From Chloroflexota bacterium (lineage in GTDB: Bacteria > Chloroflexota > Dehalococcoidia > UBA2247 > JAUWOP01), in assembly GCA_030612045.1 (NCBI GenBank), contig JAUWOP010000012.1, positions 1 to 32,212 on the forward strand: a stretch of 32,212 nucleotides of DNA. The letters are read 5' to 3'. A model generated the notes under the pieces. The model saw only the letters and a program-made list of their open reading frames with translations. It searched no databases and was not told where the DNA came from. The translations under genes and the position numbers were made by a program. Below, piece after piece: positions 3,134 to 30,257 of the stretch. How positions within the stretch are numbered: position 1 is the stretch's first letter; each line of letters opens with the position of its first letter.

Positions 3134-4804
3134 CTAGACAGAGACTCGCCTTCCCAACAACTTTTTTCTAAGCAATTCATGTATAACTTGGGGTAGCTGA
3201 TTAACAAGCCTAACCATCTGGAGGCTTTCCCCATATTGTTCCCGCATCTGGGAGACTCTCTCATAGCCACAGCCTAAAGTTATTAGATCTATATTCTTTT
3301 CAGCACAAAATGCTTTAGCTTCTGCTACACCCACTCCACAATTTGATTCTCCATCCGTGATATGAATAAGGAGTCTTCTCTTACCCGCAGGCATCTTCAA
3401 AGCGGCTGCAATTATTGCCTCACCAGCAGGGGTACGCCCCATTACAGGAACAGTAAACAGTCTATTATGGCGAAACATTTGATAAACCAAGCATACTCCA
3501 AAATGCTCATTATAACCAAATACCTCCAGTCTACTCTTATATCCTTGCAATGCCTTAGCAAGAGTAACACAGACATGTTCGGCTAATCGCTGTTTTCCTC
3601 CCCCCATTGACCCAGAGGCATCCACAAGGATGGTGATACTCCAGGCGTTCTCTAATACAGGTTCCTTCAGCAGGAAGACCTTCTTTGTGATAGGAATCCT
3701 GTATAATCTCCTTCCATCAAGCCTACCGCTACTGAGCCCTCGGTTTACTCTCATAGCCCGTTCCCATTGTGCATGGAATACCTGCCTCAACTTCCACACC
3801 ATATGAGGATCCGGCACTACTACACATGATTGGGTTGCATTTCTGAAATTAGTAGGAATCACATCTATCTTTTCACCCTTCACCGCTAGTCTAATGAGAG
3901 CCGTTATATCCTCTCCACTGGAAGCTAGTATCTCTTGCACCTCTTCAGATATCCGAGGAGATAAGGGACTTGATTCTCCACCACCTGGGGCTCCCATACT
4001 ATGATATTCCCAGGTCTCAGTAGGCAAGGCTCTTACTCGCCTTACTATCTTCTCCATATCCCATTTAATAAAAAACTTCTGAATAGCTTTCCAAAGCTCG
4101 CTATAGACTTTACTCCGATAGCTGATCTTATCTGAAATGGAAACTCCGCCCCCACCATTAATAATTTCATCAGTACGAGAAAGAAGAAGCCCCAGCGGTT
4201 CCAAGTAATCGGTGTGAATATCCTCATACTGCTGATTATCTATCACATACCTCCCCCAGATATGGAAAAGATTCTCTGCTGTGGGAGGTATTGAGGGATG
4301 AGCCATCATTTGTGATTGAGAGTGGCGCCATACTCGTGCTTTATGTACATAATCCCCTAGAATACTGCCACTAATAATCCTATCTACATAAATATCCTCA
4401 CCTGTCTCCACCAGACGTTGGAGATACCCCGTATGTCTAAGAGGCAACCTCTCCCGGACATCTGCCATCTTTACCCAAATCCAGTCACTCCCATATTTAC
4501 AGTGTAAAGCCTCACTAGCAGCTAACCCCACCAGAATATCCATCCTTCCTGGGGGAATAGGGTATCTTCCTAGTGCCACCTCTGGAGGTACATAAAGCTT
4601 CCCTGGTTCCGGCTCAGACATCCCACACCACTCCACACTCTTGACATTTGCTCCTACATACCCTACTATCTTCCTTAAAGCTCTGAGGGCATTAGCTAAC
4701 TCCAAGGGCTCCAGAGCAGATTTATTTATCCTCCAATATTCAGAATACCCTCTCCCTTCCCCTCCTCCACTCCTAGTGGTTACGCCAGAAAATCCTGTAA
4801 CCAT
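3134..4804 (-). CDS. von Willebrand factor A (VWA) domain protein, partner of MoxR/CobS-type ATPase
   Basis: This is a 556-residue cytoplasmic protein without signal peptide. The C-terminal third is a VWA fold with a MIDAS motif DASGSM at residues 395-400 and a later HITDGES segment. The N-terminal two thirds have no motif I recognise. The start overlaps the end of the upstream AAA+ ATPase gene by 32 bases, which implies translational coupling. Such ATPase/VWA pairs (MoxR, NorQ/NorD, CbbQ/CbbO, CobS/CobT) usually act as chaperones or activases that insert metals or remodel enzymes. The VWA end resembles the CobT/NorD type more than a surface VWA protein. Which enzyme it serves is not visible; a link to the glycyl-radical operon at 17394-22957 is only a hypothesis. 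Confidence 0.8.
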   Translation of the reverse strand: MVTGFSGVTTRSGGGEGRGYSEYWRINKSALEPLELANALRALRKIVGYVGANVKSVEWCGMSEPEPGKLYVPPEVALGRYPIPPGRMDILVGLAASEALHCKYGSDWIWVKMADVRERLPLRHTGYLQRLVETGEDIYVDRIISGSILGDYVHKARVWRHSQSQMMAHPSIPPTAENLFHIWGRYVIDNQQYEDIHTDYLEPLGLLLSRTDEIINGGGGVSISDKISYRSKVYSELWKAIQKFFIKWDMEKIVRRVRALPTETWEYHSMGAPGGGESSPLSPRISEEVQEILASSGEDITALIRLAVKGEKIDVIPTNFRNATQSCVVVPDPHMVWKLRQVFHAQWERAMRVNRGLSSGRLDGRRLYRIPITKKVFLLKEPVLENAWSITILVDASGSMGGGKQRLAEHVCVTLAKALQGYKSRLEVFGYNEHFGVCLVYQMFRHNRLFTVPVMGRTPAGEAIIAAALKMPAGKRRLLIHITDGESNCGVGVAEAKAFCAEKNIDLITLGCGYERVSQMREQYGESLQMVRLVNQLPQVIHELLRKKLLGRRVSV

Positions 4805-5630
4805 CTGCCCTAACCTCTCTATCTCCTGTCTCCATATGAACCGAAAGCAGCAAGGACTCTAACAAATCTCTGCTCAACTGAAGACTATAGATTACTGCTT
4901 CTCTTATTGAAGCCCCAACCGAAACCAATTCAGCTATCATCAGGCTATGCCTAACAGAAACTGAAAGGGGCATCTGGGTATTACCTCTCAACCTATTAAC
5001 AACTCGGATAATACTCCTCGCCTGTTCCTCAGAAACCCCAGTCTTCAAACCCAATACCTTCTCCTCTATATTAGAAGGAAGGTAATCCATCTGGATGACA
5101 TAGAACCTATCTCTCAAAGCAGCATCGAGTTCTTCCGCCCCAATGAATTCATCACCCTCATTCAGTGTAGCAAAGAAAACAACCCCTTTTGCCACCTTAA
5201 CCAGACCAAGTTGATCTACCCAAATACGCCTGTCCTCTGATAGAACAGAAAATAGCTCATTGAGAGCCTTAGGATGCTCTGGCCTATTTAACTCCTCTAG
5301 ATGAATCACACATCTAGGGAGAGTAATAGCCTTGGGGAACAGAAACTGCTGGTAGCAGGTCTCCCCATCCCTAAGTTGCTGTTCACCAAAAAGCTGCCCC
5401 GATTCAGAAAGAAGACCTATCTGAAAAGTAGCCAAGGGACGGTTATAGTATGCCGCAAATTGCCTTACCAAGGAGGATTTCCCACATCCCTGCTTTCCAG
5501 TAATAAGAATATTAGTAGGATGTCTCTGGGATAGATTCTCTATTCTATCCATAAAGGTTATAACTTCATCCCGCGCAAAAAAGTGAGCATCTTCCGCTGG
5601 AACTTCCACATCACTAACGTACTCTACCAT
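4773..5630 (-). CDS. MoxR/CobS-type AAA+ ATPase (AAA_5)
   Basis: This 285-residue protein has a Walker A motif GKQGCGKSS at residues 45-53, a Walker B strand CVIHLEE at 107-113 followed by NRPE, and a sensor/arginine-finger region around LDAALRDRF. The length and layout fit MoxR-family chaperone ATPases of the NorQ/GvpN/CobS branch. It is the first gene of a two-gene operon with the VWA protein, and a good promoter lies about 135 bases upstream. In toluene-degrading Thauera and Azoarcus the bss operon encodes an ATPase of this general class (BssE/TutH). That makes this gene a candidate helper of the X-succinate synthase in this window, although it is 12 kb away and divergently transcribed. 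Confidence 0.85.
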   Translation of the reverse strand: MVEYVSDVEVPAEDAHFFARDEVITFMDRIENLSQRHPTNILITGKQGCGKSSLVRQFAAYYNRPLATFQIGLLSESGQLFGEQQLRDGETCYQQFLFPKAITLPRCVIHLEELNRPEHPKALNELFSVLSEDRRIWVDQLGLVKVAKGVVFFATLNEGDEFIGAEELDAALRDRFYVIQMDYLPSNIEEKVLGLKTGVSEEQARSIIRVVNRLRGNTQMPLSVSVRHSLMIAELVSVGASIREAVIYSLQLSRDLLESLLLSVHMETGDREVRADGYRIFWRNH

Positions 5631-16968: not shown

Positions 16969-17175
16969 GCAACCGTTCATCTACTCTTTATATGTTACCC
17001 TGAGCCCTTCGCTTCCTGCCATTCTGAACCCTTCGCCATGTCATTCCGAACCCTTTGCCATGTCATTCCGAGCGAAGCGAGAAATCTCAACATGTGGCTC
17101 AGGGTAAACTCCGCGAAGGGTCTTCGAGATTCTTCGTCACTTCGCTCCTCAGAATGACATTGGGTGAACGGTTAC
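16969..17175. mobile_element. MITE-like element A with 8-bp target duplication
   Basis: Imperfect terminal inverted repeats (GCAACCGTTCATC at the left, GGTGAACGGTTAC at the right) enclose a palindromic core built from TGTCATTCCGAGCGAAGCGAG and its complement. The element is flanked by a perfect 8-bp direct repeat CATTAGAA at 16961-16968 and 17176-17183. The left half carries two extra partial copies of the TGTCATTCCGAACCC unit. It encodes no transposase, so movement would need an enzyme supplied in trans. Related elements sit at 19119, 24430 and 29450. Confidence 0.85.
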
Positions 17176-17393: not shown

Positions 17394-17422
17394 TTGACAG
17401 AATACGAAATTCATGTTAGAAT
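17394..17422 (+). promoter_or_regulatory. Promoter of the glycyl-radical (X-succinate synthase) operon
   Basis: Perfect TTGACA (17394-17399), 17-base spacer, then TAGAAT (17417-17422), one base from consensus. It leaves a 5' leader of about 110 bases before the GTG start at 17542. The leader contains a short TGCTCC/GGAGCA inverted repeat. No operator of a known regulator is recognised. Confidence 0.7.
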
Positions 17423-17541: not shown

Positions 17542-18492
17542 GTGGGAACGGATGGAACAACCCTGATGGTAACAAATATACAGGGTTACTCTGTCAACGA
17601 TGGTCCAGGTATCCGAACGACGGTATTTACTAAGGGATGTCCGTTAAGGTGTGAGTGGTGTCATAACCCTGAGTGTATTTACCCGCAAATACAGATAGAG
17701 TGGAGGAAAGCGAAGTGTACCCAATGTGGTACATGTCTTCAGGTATGTCCCGAGGATGCTATTAGTCCCCCAATTCCTCCAGATGAAGCTCAGGCGGAGG
17801 GGAGCACATATTACAAGATTGATCTGGAGCGGTGCAATAAGTGTATGAAGTGTGTGGAGGTATGCCCTAATGAAGCTCTTTTTGTAGTAGGTAGTGAGGT
17901 ACTTTTAGAGGAGATACTCCATGAGGTAAGGAGGGAGTATCCATTTTATCTTAATTCAGGGGGTGGACTTACAATCTCCGGAGGTGAGCCTACAACACAG
18001 ATAGATGCTGTGAAGGAATTGCTTATGGGGGCGCGTCGTCTGGGTGTCCATACCTGTGTGGATACCTGTGCCTATACCAGATGGGAGCAGCTTGAGCCGT
18101 TGATAAAGTTGACCAGCCTCTTTCTTATTGATGTGAAGAATATGGATGATGTACAGCATATTGCTCGTACTGGAGTATCTAATAGATTAATCCTGGAGAA
18201 TATCAGAAGGTTGGCTGAGAGGGGAGCCAAGATGAGGCTACGCTGTGTTGTAATTCCGGGATTCAACGATAATGAGGAGCATTTCAGGAAGGTAGGTGAG
18301 CTGGCTCAGTCTCTGGGTGACAGTGTTGAGGGGATAGATATACTACCTTTCCATAACTATTGCATGCCTAAGTATGAGCAGTTGGGGATGCAATGGTCTA
18401 TGGCCTCTATAGATAGCTTGGCACCTGAAGATGTGGCTCAGTGGGATGAGATTGTGAAGTCTTATGGTGTTGAAACTACAATAGGTGGCTAA
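17542..18492 (+). CDS. Glycyl-radical enzyme activase (radical SAM), BssD/AssD type
   Basis: This 316-residue radical SAM enzyme would install the glycyl radical on the catalytic subunit encoded at 19695-22265. The SAM cluster motif is C33-x3-C37-x2-C40 (GCPLRCEWCHNPE). An inserted ferredoxin-like domain has two four-Cys sets: Cys59/62/65/69 and Cys98/101/104/108. That insert is typical of activases such as BssD, HpdA and the glycerol dehydratase activase, and is absent from the simple PFL activase. The GGGLTISGGEPT block contributes to SAM binding. The start is GTG at 17542, decided by a strong AGGAGGT at 17529-17535. It is the first gene of the operon, matching the D-C-A-B order of bss/ass systems. 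Confidence 0.93.
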   Translation: MGTDGTTLMVTNIQGYSVNDGPGIRTTVFTKGCPLRCEWCHNPECIYPQIQIEWRKAKCTQCGTCLQVCPEDAISPPIPPDEAQAEGSTYYKIDLERCNKCMKCVEVCPNEALFVVGSEVLLEEILHEVRREYPFYLNSGGGLTISGGEPTTQIDAVKELLMGARRLGVHTCVDTCAYTRWEQLEPLIKLTSLFLIDVKNMDDVQHIARTGVSNRLILENIRRLAERGAKMRLRCVVIPGFNDNEEHFRKVGELAQSLGDSVEGIDILPFHNYCMPKYEQLGMQWSMASIDSLAPEDVAQWDEIVKSYGVETTIGG

Positions 18493-18554: not shown

Positions 18555-18782
18555 TTGGCTGCTAAGGAGAGCTATTCTCATGACATGCGTCGCGCGAGTT
18601 TCAGTGTAGGTGAGCTTTATGTATTCCCAAAGAAGGGGGAACCACATGAGGTAGAGGTGGCAAAGGCAGCAGAGCGATTTAGAAGGTTGTATGCCCGTTT
18701 GCAGTGGGCAGTAAAGGAAGAGAGGTATATGAAGGCAGCCAGGATAAGAGACAGGATGAAGCAAGTAAGAGAGATGCTATAA
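18555..18782 (+). CDS. Small UVR-motif protein inside the glycyl-radical operon
   Basis: This is a basic protein of about 75 residues from a TTG at 18555 preceded by AGGGAGGT; the frame extends to 18513. The last 36 residues (LYARLQWAVKEERYMKAARIRD and beyond, helical) resemble the UVR motif of UvrB/UvrC and McsA, a helical hairpin used for protein-protein contact, with the typical AARIRDRM ending. It has no cysteines beyond the dispensable N-terminus. It lies 62 bases after the activase and 100 bases before the zinc-ribbon gene. Its presence between the activase and the small subunit is not part of the textbook bss or ass order. A scaffold role is a guess. Confidence 0.65.
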   Translation: MAAKESYSHDMRRASFSVGELYVFPKKGEPHEVEVAKAAERFRRLYARLQWAVKEERYMKAARIRDRMKQVREML

Positions 18783-18882
18783 GCGTGTAAGTGTGACTGC
18801 GCTATTACTCCATTCCCAAGGAGGGATAGGCTTTTTGCTGATTATTGAGGAAGAGGATAACTAAGATAGATACGGGAGTGTT

Positions 18883-19110
18883 ATGGTAAAGTGTCTAAAC
18901 TGTGGATTTGAAGGAACAAGAGCGGATTTCAGATGGATGATGAGTGGTGATGGTAGTACGGCTATTTCAATTAGAGAGTGTCCCAAGTGTGGGAAGCCAG
19001 TGTATGTTAATGACCTTGACGAGGATGAGGAGAACCGAAATGTAGAGGTTTGGGGTAGTAAGATACTAGGAATGAGGCTGGATGGTAAGAAGAAACAGAA
19101 TACCTCATAG
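18883..19110 (+). CDS. Small zinc-ribbon protein inside the glycyl-radical operon
   Basis: This 75-residue protein has two CxxC knuckles, Cys4/Cys7 (CLNCGFEG) and Cys33/Cys36 (CPKCGK), spaced as in a zinc ribbon. An acidic stretch DLDEDEEN and a basic tail follow. GGGAG precedes the ATG at a good distance. It resembles the UGA-interrupted zinc ribbon at 29922-30257: C-x2-CG(F/Y)EG, an R at 31, and the second CxxC at identical positions 33 and 36. The function is unknown. Position suggests a role in assembly, regulation or protection of the oxygen-sensitive synthase. It could equally bind an Fe-S cluster rather than zinc. Confidence 0.75.
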   Translation: MVKCLNCGFEGTRADFRWMMSGDGSTAISIRECPKCGKPVYVNDLDEDEENRNVEVWGSKILGMRLDGKKKQNTS

Positions 19111-19118
19111 TAAATAAG

Positions 19119-19242
19119 ATAACCGTTCACCTGTGTTATTACGAGCGAAGCGAAGACGCAAAGCTAATCTTCGCCCTCCGCTTAGCAAGATTGTTATGTT
19201 ACTATGCTTCTCGTAATAACATGAGAGTGGGTGAATGGTTAC
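19119..19242. mobile_element. MITE-like element B inside the glycyl-radical operon
   Basis: Terminal inverted repeats ATAACCGTTCACC and GGGTGAATGGTTAC enclose a palindromic core with GTTATTACGAG at the left and CTCGTAATAAC at the right. The flanking octamers TAAATAAG and CTAATGAG match at only 5 of 8 positions, so the target duplication is decayed. It sits in the 178-bp gap between the zinc-ribbon and small-subunit genes and interrupts neither. In the transcript it would fold into a long hairpin. Confidence 0.8.
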
Positions 19243-19288: not shown

Positions 19289-19588
19289 ATGCCAACATGC
19301 GATGAGTGTAAGAGCTTCTTTGAGTGGGAAGATGACCCAATGAGGGGGGATTGTGTGATAAGGTGCAAGGACATAAAGAGTGAGTACTGGTTAACACAGC
19401 CTACGGAAGCAATGAGAGATGCGTTAGAGTGTCCCCGGTTTATCGCCAGGGATGACCCCACTAAGCAGGTTGCTGACCTTGGTGATGCTGACCGTCCTAT
19501 TTGTGAAAGGCTAGACCTGATTTGGAAAGAGGCGCAAGAGGGTCGTAAGTTCCTTGAAGATTACGATTATATTGCTCCTATTGTATAG
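19289..19588 (+). CDS. X-succinate synthase small Cys-rich subunit (BssC-like gamma)
   Basis: This 99-residue protein has the small-subunit cysteine pattern: Cys4 and Cys7 (CDEC), Cys22 (GDC), then Cys48 in a CPRF block, plus an extra Cys26. In benzylsuccinate synthase the beta and gamma subunits each bind a HiPIP-like [4Fe-4S] cluster through such CxxC...GxC...CPxF motifs. It lies immediately before the catalytic subunit, the position of bssC. At 99 residues it is longer than the roughly 60-residue BssC, with a charged C-terminal extension after residue 55. A strong AAAGGGGGTG precedes the ATG. Assignment to gamma rather than beta rests on gene order. Confidence 0.8.
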   Translation: MPTCDECKSFFEWEDDPMRGDCVIRCKDIKSEYWLTQPTEAMRDALECPRFIARDDPTKQVADLGDADRPICERLDLIWKEAQEGRKFLEDYDYIAPIV

Positions 19589-19694: not shown

Positions 19695-22265
19695 ATGGCT
19701 GAAAGGGATGTAGGGAGAGTAGTTACAGATGATGAAAGGGAAGAGCTAGCTGGTGATAAGCTCCGGTACTGGGAGTTGGCGGGAGAGCTCAGGACTGACA
19801 GGATAAATTACCTGAGGGGTGCAGCATACTCGAAGGGTCCCAGTGGCGGTAACTATCCTGCGGGTGTTAAGTTTGGGATGGGCAGGTTATTCTGGTGGAC
19901 ACGAGCCTTCCAGGAGGACCAGAGTGTTCCGTGGGGTGTAAGAAGAGCGAAGGCGATGGCATTATGGACAGAACATATGCCGCTCTTTATTATAGACCAT
20001 TCTCAGATATATGGGTATATTGAGTCCAGGCCATATGAGCTGTGCTGGATGCAGGATATAAGCCACCTCATGTCAGATGACCTCTGGTATGATAAGGTAG
20101 GATATGTTGAGAATGAGCGAGACAAAGAGTGGGGTCGTGCGGACCTTGACTGGTGGCGGGATAAGGATTTCCAGCACTGGGCTGAGCGGTATTTGTCACC
20201 TGAGGAGATTAAGATTACCAAGCTAGGTATCCAGGTCACAAGTCAGATATATATCGATGGTTTTACCAGTGCCATGCCAGAGTATGAGTGGGTGCATGAG
20301 ACGGGTTACAACAAGATATGGGATTTAATAGAGGATAATATAGAAGCGGCGCGCACTAAACTGGGCAGTGGACATGCTACACCAGATACGCACCCTCTGT
20401 TGGAGAAGATTGATGAGTGGGAGGCACAGTCAATTTCGGCTCAGTGGACGCTTCATTGGGGTGCGCGGTATGCCAGGCTAGCGAGGATAGTCGCTGAGAA
20501 CTTTGAGACCGACCCAGTGCGTAAAGAAGAGCTCCTGGAATTGGCAGCATGTGCTGATAGGGCAATTGCAGAGCCCACTGCAACCTTCCGTGAGGCGGTG
20601 CAGAAGCAGCACCTCATAATGATTGCACATAAGCTCATGGAGCGCTCCATGACAGGGTGGGGTTATCGTATGGACCAGACGCTTTGGCCCTACTATAAGA
20701 AAGATGTCCTGGAGGATAAGACCCTGACCAGAAGAGAAGCCCAGGAGTATATCGAGGAGATGTGGATCAGGACATGGGAGCTTGACCGGACTAATGCTCG
20801 CCTCTACCGTGAGATTATCATGGGGGGTGTTGGCCCCTGGGTAATTACTATTGGAGGAGTAAAGCCGGAAGACGGCAGTGATGCATGTAATGAGCTGACT
20901 GATGTTATCTGTGATTCTATGAGGTCGGTAAGGGTTTCCATGCCTTCTCTGATGTATCGGTGGCATCCCAATGCCAGGCTTGAGACGGTAAAGGCAGTAT
21001 TTGGCTGCATAAAGGAAGGTATGGGTAGCCCGTCAATCCATAACGACAAGACCTGTATAGACTCGTTGATGAACCTGTTCGGTGATTCCCGAACTGGACC
21101 ACTTAATATAGTCCCGACCGAGAGCAAGTCGCCGGGTATAACTCTGGAAGAGGCGAGGAGCTGGTGTAATGTGGTATGCATGTCGCCTTGTCCTTCTATA
21201 GGTGGGCGCAGCCAGGGAGTAAGGTATGCGAATTCGATGATATCAGCAACCAAGTGTGTGGAGCTTGCTCTCTACGACGGTTTTGACCCGCTTGTCTCCA
21301 AGGTACAGTTGGGACCTCACACTGGTAATGCTGCTGAATTTAAGACCTACGAGGAGTTTGCTCGTGCTTGGGAAGGACAGTATGATTTTTCTGCTACGAT
21401 TTCTACCAGGACACGAAATATCTGCCGCTTTGTAGAGGCACGTTGGGTATCGATGCCCATGACATCTACCCTCTTCAGGCGGTGTGTAGAAAGTGGAATA
21501 AATTGTATTGACCCCGCCTCCGGTGAATGTGGTAATCCGTGGGTTACACTAATTGTATCCAATGACGTGGGTGACTGCCTGTATGCAGTGAAGAAGGTCA
21601 TTTTTGAGGATAAGAAGTATACCATGGCACAACTGGTAGAGGCGTGCAAGGCTAATTGGGAAGGCTATGATGATATGCGTAAGGACATGATCAATGCTCC
21701 CAAGTGGGGTAATGATATTGATGCGGTGGATGAGGTGTGTGTCTACGCCTACGATAGAATGGAGAAGATCATAGAGCGAAATATAGAGTGGTGTGGACAG
21801 AAGTTCACCGCCCTGCCGCAGAATGCTTCTACATACATAGCTTACGCCTTAAGAGTAGGTGCGTTGACTAATGGGAGGCGCTGGGGTGAGCCTTTATATG
21901 ATGGTGGCTGCTCAGCCGGAGCAGGGTTCGATAAGAGGGGTCCCACTGCCTTACTCAGGTCTTGCTCCAAGATAGATTATTCCAGCATTAAGGAAGTTCT
22001 CCTTAATCAGAGATTGAATCCTGCCCAGTTGAAGGGTGATAAGGGCTTCCAAATGTGGGTGAACTACATGAAGACCTGGTATGACCTGGGGGTAGGCCAC
22101 ATTCAGTTTAATATGGTGGATAACGAAACCCTCAGAGCAGCACAGAAGGAGCCTGAGAAGTATCAGGAGCTAGTGGTAAGGGTTGCTGGATACAGTGCTC
22201 TTTTTGTTGAGTTGAGTAGGATCTGTCAGGATTCTATCATACAGAGGAATGTGAACGAGCTATAG
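19695..22265 (+). CDS. Fumarate-adding glycyl-radical enzyme, X-succinate synthase catalytic subunit (BssA/AssA family)
   Basis: This 856-residue glycyl-radical enzyme would add a C-H-activated hydrocarbon or aromatic across the double bond of fumarate, the first step of anaerobic hydrocarbon degradation. The radical glycine is Gly832 in RVAGYSALFVEL, 25 residues from the C-terminus. The thiyl cysteine is Cys495 in NVVCMSP. Arg510 lies exactly 15 residues later, the same spacing as Cys493 and fumarate-binding Arg508 in Thauera BssA (Gly829 there). The N-terminal FGMGRLFWWTRAFQED block also fits the family. An additional Cys499 follows the catalytic one, where other members I recall have Gly. 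The ATG at 19695 follows GAGGAGAG; the frame extends to 19650. Flanking Cys-rich subunits and the activase support this over HpdB-type decarboxylases. The substrate cannot be told from sequence. Confidence 0.92.
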   Translation: MAERDVGRVVTDDEREELAGDKLRYWELAGELRTDRINYLRGAAYSKGPSGGNYPAGVKFGMGRLFWWTRAFQEDQSVPWGVRRAKAMALWTEHMPLFIIDHSQIYGYIESRPYELCWMQDISHLMSDDLWYDKVGYVENERDKEWGRADLDWWRDKDFQHWAERYLSPEEIKITKLGIQVTSQIYIDGFTSAMPEYEWVHETGYNKIWDLIEDNIEAARTKLGSGHATPDTHPLLEKIDEWEAQSISAQWTLHWGARYARLARIVAENFETDPVRKEELLELAACADRAIAEPTATFREAVQKQHLIMIAHKLMERSMTGWGYRMDQTLWPYYKKDVLEDKTLTRREAQEYIEEMWIRTWELDRTNARLYREIIMGGVGPWVITIGGVKPEDGSDACNELTDVICDSMRSVRVSMPSLMYRWHPNARLETVKAVFGCIKEGMGSPSIHNDKTCIDSLMNLFGDSRTGPLNIVPTESKSPGITLEEARSWCNVVCMSPCPSIGGRSQGVRYANSMISATKCVELALYDGFDPLVSKVQLGPHTGNAAEFKTYEEFARAWEGQYDFSATISTRTRNICRFVEARWVSMPMTSTLFRRCVESGINCIDPASGECGNPWVTLIVSNDVGDCLYAVKKVIFEDKKYTMAQLVEACKANWEGYDDMRKDMINAPKWGNDIDAVDEVCVYAYDRMEKIIERNIEWCGQKFTALPQNASTYIAYALRVGALTNGRRWGEPLYDGGCSAGAGFDKRGPTALLRSCSKIDYSSIKEVLLNQRLNPAQLKGDKGFQMWVNYMKTWYDLGVGHIQFNMVDNETLRAAQKEPEKYQELVVRVAGYSALFVELSRICQDSIIQRNVNEL

Positions 22266-22381: not shown

Positions 22382-22867
22382 ATGGCAGATAAAAAGATAT
22401 GCAGCTTGTGTGAATACTTCTCTGCCTATACCAGCGCTGGTTCCATGGAGGGAATCTGCCTCAAGAAGTTTCAGAAAGATAGAAGGGGAAGGCAGACTAA
22501 TGAACCTCTCCCCGTAAGATATAATACAGATGCGAGTAAGTGCCCCTTCTTCGAGCCAATGAAGACAGAGGTAGTAACCGATGGGTATCAGTATGGGTAT
22601 CACCCAGGATTAAGGGTATATGGTGAGGTTGAAGATAAGCCTGCGGTAGACATGGAGAAAAAGTCAGGTTGGGTTGGATATGCGGATACAAAGGAAGCAC
22701 CCAGTGTAGGTTCAGGTCGGGAAACGGTAGAGGCAGATGCGGAAGCTCTGAAAGGCATGTGGGTGGGAAAAGAGAGAAGCCATGATGGCGCAGCCGCCGG
22801 GGCGTATGGAGAAGTTCTAAGTGAAGAAGAGAAGAGGAAGAAGGAAACTAAAGAGGGGAAGAAGTAG
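22382..22867 (+). CDS. X-succinate synthase Cys-rich subunit (BssB-like beta) with long extension
   Basis: The first 60 residues carry the HiPIP-like cluster pattern Cys7/Cys10 (CSLC), Cys26 (GIC) and Cys54 (CPFF), as in BssB/BssC of benzylsuccinate synthase. The gene follows the catalytic subunit, the bssB position. BssB is about 80 residues, whereas this protein has 161. Residues 62-161 form a hydrophilic, probably disordered extension rich in Gly, Glu and Lys, ending in a run of charged residues. The extension is not something I recognise from described systems. The ATG follows AAGGGGGTAGG. A strong terminator begins 49 bases after the stop, so this is the last gene of the operon. Confidence 0.82.
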   Translation: MADKKICSLCEYFSAYTSAGSMEGICLKKFQKDRRGRQTNEPLPVRYNTDASKCPFFEPMKTEVVTDGYQYGYHPGLRVYGEVEDKPAVDMEKKSGWVGYADTKEAPSVGSGRETVEADAEALKGMWVGKERSHDGAAAGAYGEVLSEEEKRKKETKEGKK

Positions 22868-29449: not shown

Positions 29450-29625
29450 GTAACCATTCACCCACTCTCATGTCATTGCGAGCATCCGACCCACCGCTGC
29501 GCTGGGTGGGTTATATCAGAAAGGAACTCTGAGTTCCTTAGGAGGAGCATAGCGACGAAGCAATCTCTTCTACCCCACCGAGATTGCTTCGCCTTCGGCT
29601 CGCAATGACATAGGTGAACGGTTAC
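29450..29625. mobile_element. MITE-like element D with perfect 8-bp target duplication
   Basis: Terminal inverted repeats GTAACCATTCACC and GGTGAACGGTTAC enclose a core with TGTCATTGCGAG and CTCGCAATGACA. A perfect 8-bp direct repeat AATTTATA flanks it at 29442-29449 and 29626-29633. The right-hand duplication supplies the last sense base pair region and TAA stop of the FmdB-type gene. The left half contains two further hairpins (GACCCACC...GGGTGGG and AAGGAACTC...GAGTTCCTT), perhaps a nested insertion. No transposase is encoded. Confidence 0.88.
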
Positions 29626-29921: not shown

Positions 29922-30257
29922 TCATGAATGCACTCGAGCCTCTCTCAGCTTGCTATCAATATACCGTATGAACTTACTCGCCCATTCTATATTAAGGCTC
30001 GCATTGAGCTCAACTATTTCCCTTCTAATTCCGGGGACATCTTCAAGCTTCCCTGAATTGACAAGGGTGTTAAGCTGCATACACAAACTCTTCAACTCTT
30101 GTTCATCTTCATCTCGCTCATCAATAATCTTACAGGCAATAGACTTGCGGCAGGTGGGACATTGCCGCACCTTTGTAGAACATCAGCCACCACCCCCACC
30201 TGATAAATAAGTGAACTCACGCCTTTTCCCTTCATACCCACAATACGGGCAGTCCAT
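29922..30257 (-). CDS. Zinc-ribbon protein interrupted by an in-frame UGA at codon 25
   Basis: From an ATG at 30257, behind GGGGGTGAT, the frame reads MDCPYCGYEGKRREF and reaches TGA at 30185-30183. It then continues without any other stop for 86 codons to 29922. Both halves are needed for the zinc ribbon: Cys3/Cys6 before the UGA and Cys33/Cys36 after it. The same layout and the same 33/36 positions occur in the zinc ribbon at 18883-19110, which has Ser at the UGA-aligned position. The remainder (KIIDERDEDEQELKSL and on) is charged and helical. The UGA may be a nonsense mutation or a selenocysteine codon. A 7-bp stem, TGCGGCA/TGCCGCA, begins 13 bases after it. Translation could also restart at a GTG at 30170. 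The ATG overlaps the Rrf2 gene by 26 bases. Confidence 0.6.

Follow-up and report, generated by a model that had tools for sequence, protein, structure and literature searches.

The four-subunit alkane-activating enzyme (1-methylalkyl)succinate synthase is known structurally from one betaproteobacterium (PDB 9O8U), and one of its subunits, named MASS-delta by the authors of the structure, folds like rubredoxin and holds one Fe (PMC12358834). The tail of MASS-delta contacts the glycyl radical domain, the subunit overlaps the modelled activase site, and it is more oxygen-sensitive than the other subunits; the authors left its role open and described the reason for a rubredoxin-like subunit as "enigmatic" (PMC12358834). 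Among the alkyl-type operons annotated here, the usual gene order was activase, gamma, alpha, beta, delta, delta-prime, MoxR ATPase and VWA protein, e.g., in Smithella (L083), and in Desulfatibacillum alkenivorans (L072) beta precedes gamma.

The window, i.e., the whole stretch of 32,212 nucleotides that was analysed, makes up the whole of contig C4 in the genome (G000, 1.6 Mb) of a Chloroflexota bacterium. A plus-strand row of genes at 17.5-22.9 kb encodes an activase, a UVR-like ORF, a four-Cys ribbon protein, and the gamma, alpha and beta subunits; a ribosome site precedes every gene of the row, and no terminator-like site was seen on its plus strand. Upstream of the operon lies a sigma-70-like promoter candidate (17394..17422, plus strand; TTGACA-17-TAGAAT with TG before the second hexamer) with 11 of 12 consensus matches, the number of such sites in the region not being above that in shuffles. 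The glycyl radical enzyme activase (17542..18492, plus strand) is a radical SAM protein with two extra 4Fe-4S motifs (TIGR02494, 327 bits; cut-off 174), and the gamma subunit (19289..19588, plus strand) belongs to the MasC/BssC, TutF family (PF08201, E=7e-14; MasC, E=1.7e-6). A MoxR-type ATPase of a kind that occurs in fumarate-adding operons (4773..5630, minus strand) and its partner VWA protein (3134..4804, minus strand) are encoded about 12 kb upstream of the operon on the opposite strand. Three MITE-like elements with the terminal inverted repeats GTAACCRTTCACC were found in the window (16969-17175, 19119-19242 and 29450-29625), and the second of these is situated between the ribbon gene and gamma.

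The earlier note had placed two co-directional small genes with ribosome binding sites between the activase and gamma, and this was borne out, with the span 18555-19110 exact and ribosome sites present before both. For the UVR-like ORF (18555..18782, plus strand, 75 aa), the best start was TTG at 18555 behind gagggaggtttcg, with the stop at 18782; the ribbon ORF (18883..19110, plus strand, 75 aa, CxxC-x(25)-CxxC) starts with ATG at 18883 behind cgggagtgtt and stops at 19110. Both small ORFs are real genes: in each, the coding score was positive in the annotated frame only (one of six frames), homologues were found in other genomes, and for the UVR-like ORF the codon-position differences from the homologue in genome G079 (11/8/24 over 34 codons) fell mostly on third positions, which together indicate more than chance. 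The coding scores (0.31 bits per codon for the UVR-like ORF and 0.26 for the ribbon ORF) were similar to those of gamma and beta.

The alpha subunit (19695..22265, plus strand) scored 583 bits against MasD and 483 bits against TutD, and in a tree of 85 alpha rows it fell inside the alkyl-type clade (SH-aLRT 100) on a long branch, its identity to enzymes from other genomes not exceeding 42%. The catalytic Cys495 (thiyl) and the RVAGYS glycyl motif are both present; if the numbering in the alignment is taken to be shifted by 12, MASS Thr598 is kept and Tyr194 is replaced by Phe. The beta subunit (22382..22867, plus strand), with an unusual long C-terminus, gave no match when searched alone against the PDB, and as a family profile it was identified as MasB (9o8u_B, E=4.8e-37). 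Judged by these similarities, the operon would encode an alkyl-type X-succinate synthase (MAS/ASS-like). An 18-residue insertion (RTGPLNIVPTESKSPGIT) is located at about residues 466-483 of alpha, directly before the catalytic Cys loop, and has no counterpart in the other two alpha copies of the genome. These further alkyl-type alphas (C39:14734-17157 and C45:6493-9018, both on the minus strand) are 50% and 45% identical, respectively, to the window alpha, and the C45 locus also holds its own delta, beta, two PPOX-like proteins, activase, MoxR and VWA.

When the ribbon protein was searched alone against solved proteins, one relevant match was obtained, chain D of 9o8u (MasE; E=1.1e-4), to which all four Cys residues (Cys 4, 7, 33 and 36) aligned. 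A delta family profile built from 13 members matched 9o8u_D with E=5.8e-24, the match spanning residues 1-69 and taking in the PWGKS tail, and the runner-up was at 0.02; no Pfam or NCBIfam model reached its cut-off for the ribbon protein. The protein shares 24-39% identity with the other deltas compared, and in its tail (VWGSKILGMRL versus PWGKSAGIEGL) WG alone is kept, with the family profile spanning the tail. The gene at 18883-19110 is thus taken as a homologue of MasE, which is delta in (1-methylalkyl)succinate synthase, and the operon is read as encoding a complete alkyl-type set of alpha, beta, gamma, delta and activase. The earlier note had taken the protein for a four-Cys zinc ribbon; the four Cys residues stand, and as a homologue of the rubredoxin-like MasE, with structure 9O8U as the model, the domain would probably bind one Fe ion instead of Zn.

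Linkage of delta to alkyl-type enzymes was assessed in 80 fumarate-adding or related loci, which were fetched and annotated with profiles; from the 85 alpha rows of the tree, 28 near contig ends were left unscored for delta. A delta gene lay near alpha in 26 of the 29 scorable alkyl-type rows versus 1 of 20 (a weak match) in the sister clade, to which the bss-type enzymes belong (Fisher p=1.5e-9, kinship ignored). Within the class, the delta family was found in 5 of 393 genomes, in all five within fumarate-adding clusters; in the cluster of G124 the contig ends before any alpha. G032, of the same class, is Dehalococcoidia bacterium CSMAG_2522, as judged by the identity of the alpha rows L039 and L074. 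The search for ribbon homologues beside glycyl-radical synthase genes, which the earlier note had proposed, gave a very strong positive answer. Because of this linkage the ribbon protein is a standard subunit, and the ass gene list from which the earlier note had excluded it was incomplete: delta is present in alkyl-type operons, among them those of Desulfatibacillum alkenivorans and Smithella. Delta can thus serve as a marker that divides alkyl-type from benzyl-type operons.

The ribbon protein might instead be a factor apart from the enzyme that serves in assembly, oxygen protection or regulation, as the earlier note had suggested; its zinc-ribbon-like motif would suit such a factor, as would the oxygen sensitivity of MASS-delta and the role left open by its authors (PMC12358834). 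The family matches over its full length a subunit bound in the enzyme complex and is strictly linked to alkyl-type alpha, both of which speak against a separate factor and make it very improbable. The delta of the window is a known kind of subunit and a deep-branching member of it, by which the four-subunit alkane-activating enzyme is now extended to a deep Dehalococcoidia-like branch. On the model of 9O8U, the delta tail would pack against the glycyl-radical domain, and since delta would overlap the activase site as well, it would most likely control activase access, gating the opening of the domain for radical installation and otherwise keeping the domain closed.

A second type of delta, with the tail WGxxxLRGxxFxR, was observed immediately ahead of the activase gene, or overlapping it, in five operons (L064 5579-5800, L061 4404-4685, L066 429-683, L038 4278-4036 on the minus strand, and L108 537-782), all of which also hold a standard delta after alpha. 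The tail of the window delta partly resembles this pre-activase type. In the bss-type operon of Desulfosporosinus sp. BRH_c37, a Cys-rich delta-like protein is encoded after the activase (L103 7596-7832); it was rejected as a delta, the match being weak and by eye nearer to a Cys-rich delta-prime.

Paralogue searches revealed delta-prime, a protein of about 110 residues that joins a delta-like rubredoxin N-terminus to a helical C-terminus of about 60 residues and is usually encoded directly after delta in alkane operons. Of 16 clear copies, 11 have a putative selenocysteine (Sec; CxxGUPxxG) and the other five have Cys; the in-frame TGA of the eleven loci (L083 11226-11552, L079 11255-11593, L064 11340-11672, L038 2126-1785 on the minus strand, L070 3815-4141, L077, L081, L084, L108, L122 and L125) aligned with the Cys of CxxGCPACGES in the five homologues (L072, L086, L082, L068 and L100). 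The hairpin after the UGA retained 5-9 of 9 reference pairs in Sec genes and 4-6 in Cys genes. A tRNA-Sec exceeded the cut-off (threshold 47) in G000, G032 and the genomes of L072, L083 and L064, with best matches of 69-76 bits, weaker matches in this search being other tRNAs; G000 gave 69.7 bits together with a SelB of 357 bits, and SelB was also over its cut-off in G032. The predicted structure of a Cys-form delta-prime had 9o8u_D as its first match. A divergent delta-prime with an in-frame TGA that may be read as selenocysteine is encoded in the window outside the operon (29922..30257, minus strand); it has GGUC instead of GUPAC and overlaps an Rrf2-like regulator gene where the latter ends. 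Elsewhere in the genome (C1:74558-74719, minus strand; L051 4385-4744) a delta-prime-like protein that lacks Sec is encoded on its own, adjoining leuD-like and aminotransferase-like genes and away from any radical enzyme.

No Pfam or NCBIfam model was found to cover delta-prime, no entry for it was found among the entries examined in the table of a 2026 inventory of prokaryotic selenoproteins, and no literature pairing a selenoprotein with alkylsuccinate synthase was found. With the UGA/Cys alignment, the SECIS-like hairpins and the Sec machinery considered at the level of the family, delta-prime apparently constitutes an undescribed selenoprotein family, a reading drawn from sequence. We regard it as likely that the delta family is wider than the solved subunit in this way and that delta-prime is a candidate redox partner at the stage where the radical is installed or repaired. 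If true, delta-prime bears on the open question of why alkane-activating enzymes carry a rubredoxin-like part, and both paralogues of delta, the pre-activase type and the selenocysteine type, offer leads on it.

The other small gene, for which the earlier note had described a UVR-like helical hairpin, was modelled by AlphaFold as a disordered N-terminus followed by helices at 30-54 and 58-74 (pLDDT above 90). The two-helix prediction thus agreed with the note, and the family assignment was borderline: PF02151 gave E=3e-4 and 20.8 bits for the window protein, just under the cut-off of 21.5 (22.2 bits in the genome search), and 24.5 bits, above the cut-off, for its homologue in G079. The best Foldseek matches of the hairpin were McsA, ClpC and the UvrB C-terminus, with E-values above 1. 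A tie to fumarate-adding enzymes, also suggested in the note, was not seen in the 80 other fumarate-adding or related loci, none of which holds a UVR-like gene, and a general role in such operons (0/80 loci) was rejected; absence from related operons is what the note had named as refuting its idea, and it was observed here within fumarate-adding enzymes. The sole homologue among 393 genomes of the class and 400 of the phylum (overlapping sets) is that of G079 (49% identical), where the genes run activase, PPOX-like protein, UVR and multi-CxxC ribbon protein, with UVR two genes after the activase. The two glycyl radical enzymes of G079 are on other contigs, one of them without an adjacent activase. 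Since the sole homologue, too, is encoded near the activase of a glycyl radical enzyme, the gene may plausibly be tied to activation and not to the synthase; the two genomes amount to one independent case of the association, and by our own rough estimate the chance of a coincidental second occurrence is a few per cent. No literature pairing UVR with a glycyl radical was found. Two further candidates were set aside: G228 as a third match in the class (a 641-codon ORF of UvrB/UvrC size with a motif match only), and a descent of the UVR-like protein from the C-terminal half of delta-prime by gene splitting (one hhalign comparison, E=0.0018, probability 15%).

We read the UVR-like protein as an activase-associated accessory of inferred role. 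The main rival to this reading is an adaptor for proteolysis, whose hairpin would bind the UVR-type segment of ClpC, as McsA does, and direct the turnover of damaged synthase. Oxygen cleaves glycyl radical enzymes, so that cleaved synthase would be a substrate; the leading fold matches include McsA and ClpC, and G000 and G079 each have, apart from ORFs as long as UvrB/UvrC, a long ORF with a UVR motif that corresponds to ClpC in size (837 and 827 codons). However, any short hairpin is expected to give such fold matches, no McsB was seen nearby, and the chain lacks the zinc fingers of McsA, having zero Cys and scoring 12.7 bits against the McsA model NF053706 (cut-off 210), and we consider a proteolysis adaptor unlikely. 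Slightly less probable still is that the ORF is a passenger or a decaying gene without a functional part in the system. Its absence from the 80 other loci and its occurrence in two of several hundred genomes would fit a passenger, and the MITE-like element between delta and gamma indicates that insertions are tolerated in the operon; against this stand the coding signal, the ribosome site, the codon-position pattern relative to the 49% identical homologue, and the location of that homologue likewise near an activase. For the accessory reading, the UVR-like protein would be made together with the activase and would act as an adaptor whose hairpin docks, while activation takes place, on either the activase or delta; within the wider reading of the delta family, this free-standing hairpin protein may have a related docking role. 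Taken jointly, it is highly probable that the ribbon protein serves as delta in an alkyl-type (MAS/ASS-like) enzyme and that the UVR-like protein is a hairpin protein co-made with the activase and presumably a docking adaptor.

Compared with MasE (MASS-delta) of Azoarcus sp. HxN1 (9O8U chain D; PNAS 2025, PMC12358834), the window delta is alike in its rubredoxin-like four-Cys domain, in the WG motif of a short tail at its C-terminus, and in being co-encoded with alkyl-type alpha, beta, gamma and activase; the gene of MasE follows alpha, whereas the window delta is encoded between the activase and gamma and its tail has diverged. In Desulfatibacillum alkenivorans and Smithella sp. SCADC, the operons for alkylsuccinate synthase hold activase, gamma, alpha, beta and delta, as in the window, but have delta-prime, MoxR and VWA directly downstream, which in the window are elsewhere on the contig, and they lack the UVR-like gene that the window operon has. 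In its predicted helical hairpin and motif, the UVR-like protein resembles McsA, the ClpC linker and the UvrB C-terminus (PF02151); unlike these, it is a free-standing protein of 75 aa without zinc fingers, nuclease or ATPase domains, and whereas McsA combines zinc fingers and a UVR motif in one chain, the UVR-like protein carries its hairpin on a chain without Cys.
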